DNA from: Alphaproteobacteria bacterium
GTDB lineage: Bacteria; Pseudomonadota; Alphaproteobacteria; Kiloniellales; DSM-21159
Direction of reading: 5' to 3'
DNA: 64,000 bases
Assembly: GCA_030433005.1 (NCBI GenBank)
Contig: JAUILQ010000004.1
Span: 62,001 to 126,000, forward strand
Part shown: one piece after another, positions 5,151-11,740 of the stretch
How positions within the stretch are numbered: the stretch's first letter is position 1
How the letters are laid out: each line of letters starts with the position of its first letter
Notes under the pieces: model-generated
Seen by the model: the letters and a program-made list of their open reading frames with translations, nothing else
Told to the model about the DNA's origin: nothing
Databases searched by the model: none
Translations under genes and position numbers: made by a program

Positions 5151-6449
5151 ATGGCCGAGTTCACCGACTACAAGGTCAAGGACATCTCCCTCGCCAACTG
5201 GGGGCGGATGGAGATCGAGATCGCCGAAACCGAGATGCCGGGCCTGATGGCCCTGCGCGAGGAGTTCGGCAAGGAGCAGCCCCTGAAGGGCGCCCGCATC
5301 ACCGGCTGCCTGCACATGACCATCCAGACCGCGGTGCTGATCGAGACGCTGAAGGCGCTCGGCGCCGACATCCGCTGGTCGTCGTGCAACATCTTCTCGA
5401 CCCAGGACCACGCCGCGGCGGCGATCGCCGCCGCCGGCATCCCGGTCTTCGCCTGGAAGGGCATGACCGAGGAGGAATACGAGTGGTGCATCATCCAGAC
5501 CATCGAGGGTCCGGACGGCTGGCGCCCGAACATGATCCTGGACGACGGCGGCGACCTGACCGCGATCATGCATCGCCCCGAGTACGTCGAGCTGATGAAG
5601 GACGTGAAGGGCATCTCCGAGGAGACCACCACCGGCGTCCTGCGCCTCTACGACATGGCGAAGAAGGGCACGCTCGAGTGCCCGGCGATCAACGTCAACG
5701 ACTCCGTCACCAAGTCGAAGTTCGACAACAAGTACGGCTGCCGCGAGTCGCTGGTCGACGGCATCCGCCGCGCCACCGACGTGATGATGGCCGGCAAGAT
5801 CGCCATGGTCGCGGGCTACGGCGACGTCGGCAAGGGCTCGGCGGATTCGCTGCGCCGCGCCGGCTGCCGCGTGATGGTCAGCGAGATCGACCCGATCTGC
5901 GCCCTGCAGGCCGCCATGGAAGGCTTCGAGGTCGTGACCATGGAGAATGCCGCGCCGCGCGCCGACATCTTCGTCACCGCGACCGGCAACAAGGACATCA
6001 TCACGGTCGACCACATGCGCGCCATGAAGGACCGGGCGATCGTCTGCAACATCGGCCACTTCGACAACGAGATCCAGATCGAGGGCCTGCGCAATCTCAA
6101 GTGGACCAACATCAAGCCGCAGGTCGACCAGATCGAGTTCCCGGACGGCAAGAAGATCATCATGCTGTCCGAGGGCCGGCTGGTGAACCTGGGCAACGCG
6201 ATGGGCCACCCGAGCTTCGTGATGAGCGCCTCCTTCACCAACCAGGTGCTGGCGCAGATGGAGCTTTGGAACAACGACCACAAGTACGAGAAGCAGGTCT
6301 ACGTGCTGCCCAAGCACCTGGACGAGAAGGTCGCGCAGCTGCATCTGGCGAAGCTCGGCGCCGAGCTCAGCACGCTGAGCGACGACCAGGCCGAGTACAT
6401 CGGCGTGACCTCCAGCGGGCCGTTCAAGAACGAGCAGTACCGCTACTGA
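5151..6449 (+). CDS. ahcY: Adenosylhomocysteinase
   Basis: ATG at 5151 ([19 protein letters not shown]). Motifs [45 protein letters not shown]; ends KNEQYRY. Confidence 0.98.
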
Positions 6450-6702: not shown

Positions 6703-8820
6703 ATGGAACAGCTGCTCGTGGCAGGTGGGCTCGCGCTGGCGCTCTGCATCGCCGTGGCCGTCCTGCTGATCCTGAAAAGCCGCCTGAACGCCGCCAGGCT
6801 GGAGGCCGAGCGCCTGCAGGACGGCCTCGCCGAGCGCGAGGCGGCGCTGCGCGATCGCGACGACCGCCTGGCCGACCTCGACGGACGGCTGGCCGCCAGC
6901 GAGGCCGAGCGCGCCGCCGCCGCCGCCGAGCGCGGCCGGCTGGCCGACCTGCTCGACAGCCTGCCGCAGCCGGTCTGGCTGCGCGACGGCGAGCTGCGCG
7001 TGGTCTACGCCAACCGCGCCTACCGCGCCGCCGTCGGCAACGAGCGCGACGCCCGCGAGCGCGAGGGCGCTCCTGCCGCCGGCCAGGAGCTCTTCGAGGG
7101 CGGCGACCTGGGCGAGGAGCAGCGGCTGGCACGCCGCGTGCTCGCCGAGCGCGGCAGCGACCGCGCGCGCCTGCACGCCGTGATCGCCGGCGAGCGCCGG
7201 CTGCTCGAGGTCACCAAGTCGCATGTCGAAGGCCAGGGCGTCGCCGGCACCGCCCGCGACCTCACCGACTGGGAGGAAATGAAGGGCGAGCTGGCGCGCC
7301 ACGTCGAGGCCGAGCGCGAGGTGCTCGAGAAGCTCGGCGTGGCCATCGCGATCCTCAGCGGCGACCTGCACGTGCGCTTCTACAACACCGCCTACCTGCG
7401 CCTGTGGAAGCTCGACGAGGGCTTCCTCGCCGGCCAGCCCGAGATGGGCGAGGTCCTGGACCGGCTGCGCGAGCAGCGCCGGCTGCCCGAGCAGGTCGAC
7501 TTCGCCGAGTTCAAGCGCCAGTACCTGCGCCGCTTCCAGACCCTGATCGAGCCCTTCGAGGAGCTCGAGCACCTGCCCGACGGCACCACGGTGCGCGTCT
7601 CCCTGCACCCCCACCCCTTCGGCGGCGTGCTGATCACCTACGAGGACGTCACCGACACCCTGAAGCTGGAGCGCACCTACAACACCCTGCTGGAGGTCCA
7701 GCGCGCGACCCTGGACAATCTCTACGAGGGCGTCGCGGTCTACGGCGCCGACGGCCGCCTCAAGCTGTCGAACCCCGCCTTCCAGCGCATCTGGAACCTG
7801 CCGGAAGCGCTGCTCTCGCGCGAGCCGCACGTGCGCGACCTGGTGGTCGCGGCGCGCGACTTCTACGACGTCGACGACGTCCAGTGGCCGGTCTACCTGG
7901 AGCGCCTGGTCGGCCGCGTCACCGAGCCCGAGCCGCGCACCGGCCGGCGCGAGCGCGCCGACGGCTCGGTCATCGACTTCGCCCAGGTGCCGCTGCCCGA
8001 CGGCGCCTGCCTCTACACCTTCCTCGACGTCACCGACTCGACCATGGTCGAGCGCGCCCTGCGCGACCGCAACGACGCCCTGGAGACCACCGACCGCCTG
8101 AAGAGCGAGTTCCTGGCCAACATCTCCTACGAGCTCAGGACGCCGCTCAACGCCATCGTCGGCTTCGCCGAGATCCTGCAGAAGCAGTACTTCGGCGAGC
8201 TCAACGAGCGGCAGCTCGACTACAGCCAGGCCATCGTCGAGTCCTCGCAGCGCCTGATCGGCCTGATCAACGACATCCTGGACCTCGCGTCGATCGAGGC
8301 CGGCTACCTGCGCCTCGACCGCCAGCCTGTCGACCTGCACGCCCTGCTGGTCGGCGCCCAGAACCTCTGGCGCGAGCGCGCCCGCGCGCGCGGCCTGGAA
8401 CTGGCCCTGGAGTGCGAGGAGGACATCGGCACGCTGGACTGCGACGAGCGGCGCATGACCCAGGCGCTGTTCAACCTGCTGTCCAACGCCTTCAAGTTCA
8501 CCCCCGAGGGCGGCATCATCACGCTCGCCGCCGAGCGCAGCGGCGACTCCATCCGCATCACCGTCAGCGACACCGGCATCGGCATCCCGGCACAGGATCA
8601 GGCGCGGGTCTTCGGCAAGTTCGAGCGGGTCGACTACAGCGGCTCGCGCGGCCGCCAGCCGGGCGCCGGTCTCGGCCTCTCGCTGGTCAAGAGCCTGATC
8701 GAGCTGCACGGCGGCTGGATCGAGATGGAATCGGCCGTCGACCACGGCACCAAGGTGACCTGCCACCTGCCCCTCGCCCCCGGCATCGCGCGCGAGCCGG
8801 AGCGGGTCGCCGAGAAGTAG
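6703..8820 (+). CDS. Membrane-anchored multi-PAS sensor histidine kinase homologue with Tyr at the phosphoacceptor position (DivL-like)
   Basis: N-terminal TM segment (LLVAGGLALALCIAVAVLLIL), coiled coil, PAS regions, DHp box FLANISYELRTPLNAIVGF, intact HATPase motifs NLLSNAFKFTP, DTGIGI, GAGLGLSLVKS. Confidence 0.9.
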   Translation: MEQLLVAGGLALALCIAVAVLLILKSRLNAARLEAERLQDGLAEREAALRDRDDRLADLDGRLAASEAERAAAAAERGRLADLLDSLPQPVWLRDGELRVVYANRAYRAAVGNERDAREREGAPAAGQELFEGGDLGEEQRLARRVLAERGSDRARLHAVIAGERRLLEVTKSHVEGQGVAGTARDLTDWEEMKGELARHVEAEREVLEKLGVAIAILSGDLHVRFYNTAYLRLWKLDEGFLAGQPEMGEVLDRLREQRRLPEQVDFAEFKRQYLRRFQTLIEPFEELEHLPDGTTVRVSLHPHPFGGVLITYEDVTDTLKLERTYNTLLEVQRATLDNLYEGVAVYGADGRLKLSNPAFQRIWNLPEALLSREPHVRDLVVAARDFYDVDDVQWPVYLERLVGRVTEPEPRTGRRERADGSVIDFAQVPLPDGACLYTFLDVTDSTMVERALRDRNDALETTDRLKSEFLANISYELRTPLNAIVGFAEILQKQYFGELNERQLDYSQAIVESSQRLIGLINDILDLASIEAGYLRLDRQPVDLHALLVGAQNLWRERARARGLELALECEEDIGTLDCDERRMTQALFNLLSNAFKFTPEGGIITLAAERSGDSIRITVSDTGIGIPAQDQARVFGKFERVDYSGSRGRQPGAGLGLSLVKSLIELHGGWIEMESAVDHGTKVTCHLPLAPGIAREPERVAEK

Positions 8821-8863: not shown

Positions 8864-9931
8864 TCAGGCGCCGGGAACCCCCTTGGTGGTCGAGTACTCC
8901 CAGTGCAGCTCCTCGTGCGGGTGCAGCCGGCGGCGGATGGCATGGGCGGCCAGCGCCGCCTCGGAGAAGCCGCAGAGGATCAGCTTCAGCTTGTTCGGGT
9001 AGGTCGCGATGTCGCCGACCGCGTAGATGCCCGGCCGGTCGGTGGCGCCGCTCACCGGGTCGACGACGATCAGGTGCTTGTCCAGGGCGAGGCCCCACTC
9101 GGCGATCGGCCCCAGGTTCATCGACAGCCCGAAAAAGGGCAGCAGCACGTCGGCCTCGAGCTGCCGCCGGCCGCCGTCGAGGTCGCGCACCACCACCGCC
9201 TCCAGCTTGCCGTCCTGGCCCTCCAGCGAATCCAGCTGGTAGGGCACGACCAGCTCCAGGCGCCCGGCCTCGGCGAGGGCGTGCAGCTTGGCCACGGAGT
9301 CGGGTGCGCCCCGGAACCTCTCGCGCCGGTGGATGACGTAGAGCTTGTCGGCCAGCTCGGCCAGCAGGATCGACCAGTCGAGCGCCGAGTCGCCGCCGCC
9401 GGCGATGACGATGCGCTCGCCGCGCAGCGACTCGGGCTTGGCGATGAAGTAGTGCACGCCCTGGCCCTCGCCGCGCCCCTCGTAGGCTTCGATGCCCTGC
9501 AGCGGCGGCCGGTTCGGGCCGAAGGCGCCGACGCCGGCGGCGATGATCACGGCGCCGGCCTCGATGACCGTGCCCTTGGAGGTGACGAGGCGCCAGCCGT
9601 CGACCGGCTCCTCGCCAGGCTTGGCGCCCGGTGGGCTCAGGCGGCAGGGCTCGAGGCGGTCGACCCGCTGGCCGAGGTGGTAGACCGGCCGAAAGGGCGC
9701 GGCCTGCTCGCTCAGGCGCTCGACCAGCTCGGCGGCCTGGATGCGCGGATAGCCGGGGATGTCGAAGATCGGCTTTTCCGGGTAGAGCGCGCTGCACTGG
9801 CCGCCCGGCGCGTCGAGCGCGTCGACGACATGGCAGCCGAGCTGCAGCATGCCGCATTCGAAGACGGCGAAGAGGCCGACGGGGCCGGCGCCGATGATCG
9901 CGACGTCGGTACGGTGGGTGGTCTCGGTCAT
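8864..9931 (-). CDS. TrxB-like ferredoxin--NADP(+) reductase
   Basis: VAIIGAGPVGLFAVFECGMLQL, GGQCSALYPEKPIFDIPGYP, IAGGGDSALDWSILLAELA, GIYAVGDIATYPNKLKLILCGFSEAALAAHAI. No CxxC redox pair. Confidence 0.92.
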   Translation of the reverse strand: MTETTHRTDVAIIGAGPVGLFAVFECGMLQLGCHVVDALDAPGGQCSALYPEKPIFDIPGYPRIQAAELVERLSEQAAPFRPVYHLGQRVDRLEPCRLSPPGAKPGEEPVDGWRLVTSKGTVIEAGAVIIAAGVGAFGPNRPPLQGIEAYEGRGEGQGVHYFIAKPESLRGERIVIAGGGDSALDWSILLAELADKLYVIHRRERFRGAPDSVAKLHALAEAGRLELVVPYQLDSLEGQDGKLEAVVVRDLDGGRRQLEADVLLPFFGLSMNLGPIAEWGLALDKHLIVVDPVSGATDRPGIYAVGDIATYPNKLKLILCGFSEAALAAHAIRRRLHPHEELHWEYSTTKGVPGA

Positions 9932-10190: not shown

Positions 10191-10736
10191 ATGCCCGCCT
10201 CCGCCGCCGCCATGCCCGCGCCGCCCGCCGATCCTGCCGTGCCCGACCCCGAGCCGTCGCTGGCGCTGGCCGACGAGGCCGCGACCGCGGCGCTGGCGGC
10301 GCGCCTGGCGCCGGCGCTGCGGGCCGGCGACCTGATCTGCCTGGCCGGCGACCTCGGCGCCGGCAAGACGGCCTTCGCCCGGGCGCTGATCAACGCCCTG
10401 CCGGGCCCGCCGGAAGAGGTTCCCAGCCCGACCTTCACGCTGGTCCAGACCTATCCGCGCGACGGCCTGGAGATCTGGCATTTCGACCTCTACCGGCTGG
10501 AGCGCGCCGACGAGGTCTGGGAGCTCGGCCTCGAGGAGGCTCTGGTCGCCGGCGCCAGCCTGGTCGAGTGGCCGGAGCGGGCCGCCGGCCTGCTCCCGGA
10601 GGAGCGGCTGGTGCTGCGCTTCGAGCATGCCGGGACGGGCCGGCGCGTGACTCCGGAGCCGCACGGCAGCTGGCACAGCCGCCTGGCGCCGCTCGGGCTG
10701 CCCTTGCCCGGCACCGGTCCCGGGAAGACAGCGTGA
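10191..10736 (+). CDS. tsaE: tRNA threonylcarbamoyladenosine biosynthesis ATPase TsaE
   Basis: P-loop GDLGAGKTAFARALINAL, SPTFTLVQTYP, IWHFDLYRLE, LVEWPERA. Start chosen at ATG 10191. Confidence 0.92.
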   Translation: MPASAAAMPAPPADPAVPDPEPSLALADEAATAALAARLAPALRAGDLICLAGDLGAGKTAFARALINALPGPPEEVPSPTFTLVQTYPRDGLEIWHFDLYRLERADEVWELGLEEALVAGASLVEWPERAAGLLPEERLVLRFEHAGTGRRVTPEPHGSWHSRLAPLGLPLPGTGPGKTA

Positions 10737-11740
10737 GCGCGCGCGAGGCCGCCCTCGAGGCCTTCCTCCGGCGCGCCGGCTGGGGTGCCGCCCGGCGCAG
10801 CGTGCTCGCCGCCGACGCCTCCTTCCGGCGCTACGACCGGCTGGTCGGGCCGGCCGGGCCGGCGGTGCTGATGGACGCGCCGCCGGACAAGGAGAAGCCG
10901 GCCAGCTTCGTGCAGGTCGCCCGCCTGCTGCACGACCTCGGCCTCTCGGCGCCGCGCATCCTCGAGGCCGACCTGGAGCAGGGCTTCGTGCTGCTCGAGG
11001 ACCTCGGCGACGAGACCTTCACGCGCGCCCTGGCGAACGGCCGCGACGAGGCCGGGCTCTACCGGCTCGCCGTCGACACCCTGGTGGCGCTGCAGCGGGC
11101 ATGGACGCCGGAGCGCGGCGCCGGCATCGCGCCCTATGACGAGGCCGCCTATCTGGCCGAGGCCGAGCTGCTGACCGAGTGGTACCTGCCCGCCGTCACC
11201 GGCCGGCCGCTCGAGCCGGCGGTGGCCGAGAGCTACCGCGCCGCCTGGCGGGCCGTGCTGCCCCAGGTCGAGCGTCTGCCGCGCAGCCTGGTGCTGCGCG
11301 ACTTCCACGTCGACAACCTGATCGTGCTCGACGACCGCCCGGGCGTCGCCGCCTGCGGCCTGCTCGACTTCCAGGACGCCCTGCTCGGCTCGCCGGCCTA
11401 CGACCTGGTCTCGCTGCTGCGCGATGCCCGGCGCGACGTCGACCAGCACCTGGCCGCCGCGCTGCTCGAGCGCTACCGCGAAGCCCTGCCGCACTACGAC
11501 GGCGCCGCGCTGGAGGCCGCCTACTGGGTGCTCGGCGCGCAGCGCAGCAGCAAGGTCATCGGCATCTTCACCCGGCTCTGCCGGCGCGACGGCAAGCCGC
11601 GCTACCTCGCCCACCTGCCGCGCCTCTGGCGCTGGCTGGAGGAGGAGCTGAGCCACCCCGAGCTGGCGCCGGTCGCCGAGTGGTACGCGCGGCACCTGCC
11701 GCCCGAGCTGCGCCGCGTGCCCGACGCCGAAGCGGCCTGA
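10733..11740 (+). CDS. Aminoglycoside phosphotransferase-family kinase, AmgK-like (anomeric MurNAc/GlcNAc kinase)
   Basis: GTG start overlapping the tsaE stop. LVLRDFHVDNLI and GLLDFQDALLGSPAYDLVSLLRDARRD. Next to a MurU-like nucleotidyltransferase. Confidence 0.85.
   Translation: MSAREAALEAFLRRAGWGAARRSVLAADASFRRYDRLVGPAGPAVLMDAPPDKEKPASFVQVARLLHDLGLSAPRILEADLEQGFVLLEDLGDETFTRALANGRDEAGLYRLAVDTLVALQRAWTPERGAGIAPYDEAAYLAEAELLTEWYLPAVTGRPLEPAVAESYRAAWRAVLPQVERLPRSLVLRDFHVDNLIVLDDRPGVAACGLLDFQDALLGSPAYDLVSLLRDARRDVDQHLAAALLERYREALPHYDGAALEAAYWVLGAQRSSKVIGIFTRLCRRDGKPRYLAHLPRLWRWLEEELSHPELAPVAEWYARHLPPELRRVPDAEAA

Follow-up and report, generated by a model that had tools for sequence, protein, structure and literature searches.

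The locus examined here raises the question whether a gene that simple annotation would label a generic PAS histidine kinase is an ortholog of DivL, the pseudo-histidine kinase of Caulobacter, and what such a protein would do in its host. The gene lies in a 64,000-nucleotide stretch of DNA from an alphaproteobacterium of the Kiloniellales (the window; assembly GCA_030433005.1, contig JAUILQ010000004.1, positions 62,001 to 126,000), and a sequence-only reading of that stretch had singled it out as DivL-like, with tyrosine in place of the phosphoacceptor histidine. The observation was right and its interpretation right in substance, while the function in this organism is what we infer from Caulobacter. 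DivL is often reported as undetected in lineages near that of the window (27-36% of Rhodospirillales genomes, according to PMC8116508), and the window gene, from a genome in which CckA, ChpT, CtrA and DivK are all present, is a further DivL. It is outweighed by the wider survey that accompanies it, with its loci lacking the tyrosine, the loss of that residue together with DivK, and the lineages in which histidine occupies the place.

Domain organization of the protein

The gene runs on the forward strand from an ATG at position 6703 to a stop codon ending at 8820 and encodes a protein of 705 aa with the order PAS-PAS-PAS-HisKA-HATPase. An N-terminal hydrophobic (TM) segment, read from the translation (about residues 5-25, LLVAGGLALALCIAVAVLLIL; 6715-6777), precedes three PAS domains, of which the first (PAS_4/PAS_8; residues 84-189, 6952-7269) and the third (the best PAS_7 stretch; residues 337-448, 7711-8046) were delimited by Pfam, while the limits of the second, one of three PAS_7 stretches, are estimated from alignment (about residues 205-330, 7315-7692). 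Pfam also assigned a HisKA (DHp) domain to residues 467-534 (8101-8304; E-value 2.7e-21) and a HATPase_c (CA) domain to residues 581-692 (8443-8778; E-value 1.4e-29), all on the forward strand. The H box reads FLANISYELRTPLNAIVGF, and the TAC codon at 8128-8130, in frame, puts Tyr476 (equivalent by alignment to Tyr550 of Caulobacter DivL) where an active class I histidine kinase has its phosphoacceptor histidine. The N box (FNLLSNAFKFTP), the G1 box (DTGIGIP, 8569-8589) and the G2 box (GAGLGLSLVK, 8662-8691) are all present in the translation. This is the domain layout of DivL, and the tyrosine codon, membrane anchor, several PAS domains and intact boxes named in the sequence-only reading are all borne out. 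That reading had also expected automatic annotation to call the protein an ordinary kinase; the best-ranked NCBIfam models are indeed those of other kinases, scoring far under their cut-offs, and a DivL model is absent among the matches listed.

Conservation of the tyrosine

The generic PAS histidine kinase layout, and the precedence that automatic models give to generic kinases, would suit an ordinary sensor kinase whose histidine was changed to tyrosine in this strain or by sequencing error. A survey of tyrosine conservation, proposed in the sequence-only reading, found the residue throughout the window's family (12 of 12 genomes, one of them from the same genus and with an 81% identical protein) and at 65 of 79 orthologous loci across the class, so that the tyrosine is neither strain-specific nor an error. 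Histidine stands at four of the other class-wide loci, Phe at two, and Val, Ser, Thr, Gly, Gln, Lys and Leu at one each, with one locus lacking an aligned core; the column is thus not tyrosine in about 18% of the sampled DivL loci, and parsimony on a wider tree placed tyrosine at the root. In the window's genome histidine stands at this place in every other kinase whose H box could be read, 41 in all. A sequencing error or strain-specific change at 8128-8130 was accordingly ruled out by conservation in family and class and, with the window protein also clustering with Caulobacter DivL (see below), an ordinary sensor kinase has next to no likelihood.

Relationship to Caulobacter DivL

When solved structures were searched, the best match was Caulobacter DivL (4q20, E 1.6e-56), 13 orders of magnitude ahead of the runner-up (8.1e-43), which is named only 'Histidine kinase' and has histidine at this place. 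In the alignment with 4q20, with 43% identity over DHp-CA, Tyr476 lies opposite the Caulobacter DivL tyrosine. In the reverse direction, a search limited to the sequences assembled for this comparison gave the window protein as the best match of Caulobacter DivL among the kinases of this genome, at 191 bits versus 132 for the next. Trees were inferred by FastTree and by IQ-TREE -fast with SH-aLRT. In a 48-taxon DHp-CA tree of the window protein, 15 orthologs, Caulobacter DivL (4q20) and, as the only comparison kinases, 31 from the window's own genome, a DivL clade including 4q20 excluded all 31 of these kinases with a support of 93.4 (SH-aLRT, IQ-TREE) or 0.945 (FastTree). Phylogeny, a check that the sequence-only reading had asked for, thus places the window protein beside Caulobacter DivL and apart from canonical kinases; a tree of 110 sequences gave the same grouping, but with low support (0.10) for the basal DivL node. 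One ortholog (L098), 62% identical to Caulobacter DivL (4q20) and joined to it with a support of 100, aligns over nearly the full length of the window protein, so that the link to Caulobacter DivL extends beyond the kinase core.

Nearest among named relatives were proteins of Fodinicurvata fenggangensis (58%) and Rhodovibrio sodomensis (62% in the best segment), found by a scan whose pattern included the tyrosine and whose share of tyrosine, being biased, was not taken as a frequency. The Fodinicurvata protein and one from the window's family group together (support 100). Judged from its sequence, the window gene is an ordinary DivL ortholog of a Fodinicurvata relative. Across a class-wide draw of 144 Alphaproteobacteria genomes, a whole-protein search with a match threshold of E <= 1e-75 found DivL in 79 (about 55%), nearly always as one full-length copy. 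One assembly (G053), listed at 5% contamination, has two distinct full-length DivL-like genes, L060 and L011, both with tyrosine; the pair may reflect contamination or a second copy.

Partners and predicted function

Following the suggestion that the genome be searched for cckA, divK, chpT and ctrA, we found all four. CtrA and DivK are 70% and 75% identical to their Caulobacter counterparts (identities high enough to show that the queries were adequate), and ChpT was recognized by a PF10090 match over the cut-off, a family that Caulobacter alone has among 14 control genomes. The CckA candidate is a PAS-PAS-kinase-receiver protein that matches the structures 5idj (8.7e-70) and 5idm (1.7e-41), the latter a CckA entry. 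It is also matched, at 1e-153 or below, by both CckA models of NCBIfam, although their very high cut-offs are not reached. We take 5idj to be Caulobacter CckA as well, the database entry being labelled only 'Histidine kinase'. Scans of the window for CtrA boxes (TTAA-N7-TTAA) and sigma-70 promoters, little informative at this G+C, gave no motif of either kind.

The intact ATPase boxes are also what a bacterial tyrosine kinase autophosphorylated on Tyr476 would have, and Caulobacter DivL was reportedly first described as a tyrosine kinase, to judge by the title of a 1999 paper from Wu and colleagues. Against such an activity, Caulobacter DivL is described as having neither autokinase nor phosphatase activity, and its essential functions as needing no phosphorylated DHp domain (PMC4211667). 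Its boxes too are intact, yet it binds TNP-ATP weakly (57 µM; Childers et al. 2014, PMC4211667), so that the ATP binding thought probable in the sequence-only reading does not follow from the boxes, and that point has to be dropped. We rejected an active tyrosine kinase, which is highly improbable given the inactivity of Caulobacter DivL and the natural DivL orthologs in which other residues replace the tyrosine.

The window gene very probably encodes a DivL ortholog that would act as a catalytically dead receptor of DivK~P and allosterically lower the kinase activity of CckA. The protein would be a membrane-anchored dimeric pseudo-histidine kinase in which Tyr476 occupies the phosphorylation site, and its DHp-CA core would serve not as a kinase but as a receptor on which the response regulator DivK docks; binding of DivK~P, gated by the PAS domains, would alter the conformation of DivL, the altered DivL would stimulate the hybrid kinase CckA less, and the flow of phosphate via ChpT to CtrA would be reduced. 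To the orthology, the tyrosine, the intact domains and boxes and the four partners observed here, work on Caulobacter, as set out in PMC4211667 and work cited there, adds the want of kinase and phosphatase activity, a DivK~P-specific binding that uses the canonical docking surface and owes its phospho-specificity to the PAS domains, and an effect on CckA thought to be exerted through that binding. The same wiring and outputs in this organism would follow by analogy.

The two proteins share the tyrosine in place of histidine, a PAS array joined to DHp-CA, the N, G1 and G2 boxes and the same partners in the genome. The positions mutated in Caulobacter, R553, T557, Y562, H579 and A601, correspond to R479, N483, F488, Y507 and A529 of the window protein; the first (the Arg at +3) and the last are retained, whereas N483, F488 and Y507 differ. 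The majority of the other DivLs, like the majority of the genome's other kinases, have the same three residues at these positions, and Ala at the A601 position was found in 62 of 77 DivLs versus 5 of 31 other kinases. DivJ likewise has Asn at the docking position, but it and the other kinases of DivK (PleC and PdhS) carry the phosphoacceptor histidine, whereas the window protein has tyrosine and groups with DivL. Four docking mutants of Caulobacter DivL, T557N included, are reported to bind DivK~P 8-15 fold more weakly (PMC4211667), and since the window protein has Asn at this very position, its DivK~P-specific binding is likely but not assured.

The unlike docking residues would also fit a protein that is DivL by descent but in which the PAS sensor part activates CckA directly, the core being a dimerising scaffold and the output mainly motility. 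Some alphaproteobacteria are indeed described as keeping the sensor part of DivL alone (PMC2877005, PMC4426382); in DvlL of Anaplasmataceae and Wolbachia this part is conserved, as it is in the window protein, but the C-terminal catalytic domain, complete in the window protein, is missing (PMC4426382). In Rhodospirillum centenum and Magnetospirillum, which also belong to the early-branching alphaproteobacteria, CtrA is moreover described as dispensable for growth and viability, and a primordial role in motility has been proposed for it (PMC8116508). This dispensability bears equally on the earlier view of the gene as a cell-cycle/polarity hub, of which the DivL orthology stands whereas the hub role would have to be inferred. 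On the other side, a core that is a scaffold agrees poorly with the intact HisKA and HATPase domains of the window protein, with a DivK 75% identical to that of Caulobacter in the same genome, and with the joint loss of the column and DivK described next, and we consider it unlikely.

DivK was searched for in the 79 genomes that have DivL. The column was neither Tyr nor His, or the core was missing, in 6 of the 11 genomes in which DivK was not found versus 4 of the 68 in which it was (Fisher p = 2.7e-4, in a test that ignores phylogeny, several of the cases belonging to one weakly supported clade). A core whose purpose is to read DivK would lead one to expect such an association, which also agrees with earlier reports linking the absence of DivK to DivLs that lack the kinase domain (PMC2877005 and PMC4211667). 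As an observation apart, six loci (L102, L094, L095, L103, L106 and L075) with Gln, Thr, Gly, Lys, Leu or Phe at the column come from genomes of 1.0-2.2 Mb; the DivK search of these six found nothing in five and a weak match only in the sixth.

DivL orthologs with histidine

According to PMC4211667, all DivL homologs retain Tyr550, with Ala in Magnetospirillum magneticum as the exception. We found Ala at the column in a Phaeospirillum MAG and in one other MAG; the presence of histidine in several lineages departs from that statement. In the family of G033, histidine was present in all 24 matching genomes or species (L070, L072, L213-L236), with an H box reading SHELRTPLN and, in most of them, intact N, G1 and G2 boxes. 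Two of these loci, L070 and L072, lie between ahcY and tsaE-amgK, and this gene order identifies them as the DivL of the conserved locus, as opposed to paralogs. The family of G078 holds two further groups, namely two species of one genus (L025, L243) with the N, G1 and G2 boxes largely kept, and ten species of another genus (L244-L253) with the H box THD/ELRSPLG and the three boxes erased; its remaining genera have tyrosine. Histidine was also found in three Azospirillum records (L187, L201, L202) together with G041, and in one single MAG; L107 and L157, like the three Azospirillum loci, are DivL-like proteins with histidine. HATPase_c was detected weakly or not at all in the Azospirillum proteins, and these copies are possibly paralogs, since ahcY and tsaE neighbours are missing from the stretch examined.

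In a tree built without the phosphoacceptor column, the orthologs with histidine fell into at least five groups nested among those with tyrosine, four of them multi-sequence groups and the fifth the single MAG. Support was 79.6 for the G033 family and 100 for the other three multi-sequence groups, and some of the branches separating the groups are well supported (91-98) and others weak (42-75); the exact number of Tyr-to-His changes is thus less certain than their existence. We tentatively suggest, with the balance of probability against it, that the DivL tyrosine may be reversible, histidine having been regained, and that the proteins of the first two groups, with their boxes largely intact, may again be working DivK-linked kinases or phosphatases. 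If so, these reversed DivLs, which are relatives of the window gene and not the gene itself, would wire DivK to CckA otherwise than in Caulobacter. No description of a DivL bearing histidine was found in the literature searched, whose coverage was partial. The lineages concerned are natural Y550H variants for probing the role of the tyrosine, and it is these proteins, more than the window gene, that are worth following.

Gene neighbourhood

The window gene is preceded by ahcY (S-adenosylhomocysteinase; 5151-6449, forward strand) and followed, likewise on the forward strand, by tsaE (10191-10736) and an amgK-like sugar kinase gene (10733-11740), all three conserved neighbours of divL. The sequence-only reading had correctly placed ahcY before the gene and tsaE, amgK, murU, addB and addA after it, but had omitted a gene on the reverse strand between divL and tsaE (8864-9931), which encodes a TrxR/ferredoxin-NADP-reductase-like flavoprotein. 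The order ahcY, divL, divergent flavoprotein reductase gene (where present), tsaE, amgK is common among the class members compared: of 49 loci with up to 4 kb of flanking sequence, 26 have ahcY close to divL and, among 80 named loci, ahcY lies near divL in 49 and tsaE in 47. The TrxR-like gene has the same position and orientation in many relatives.
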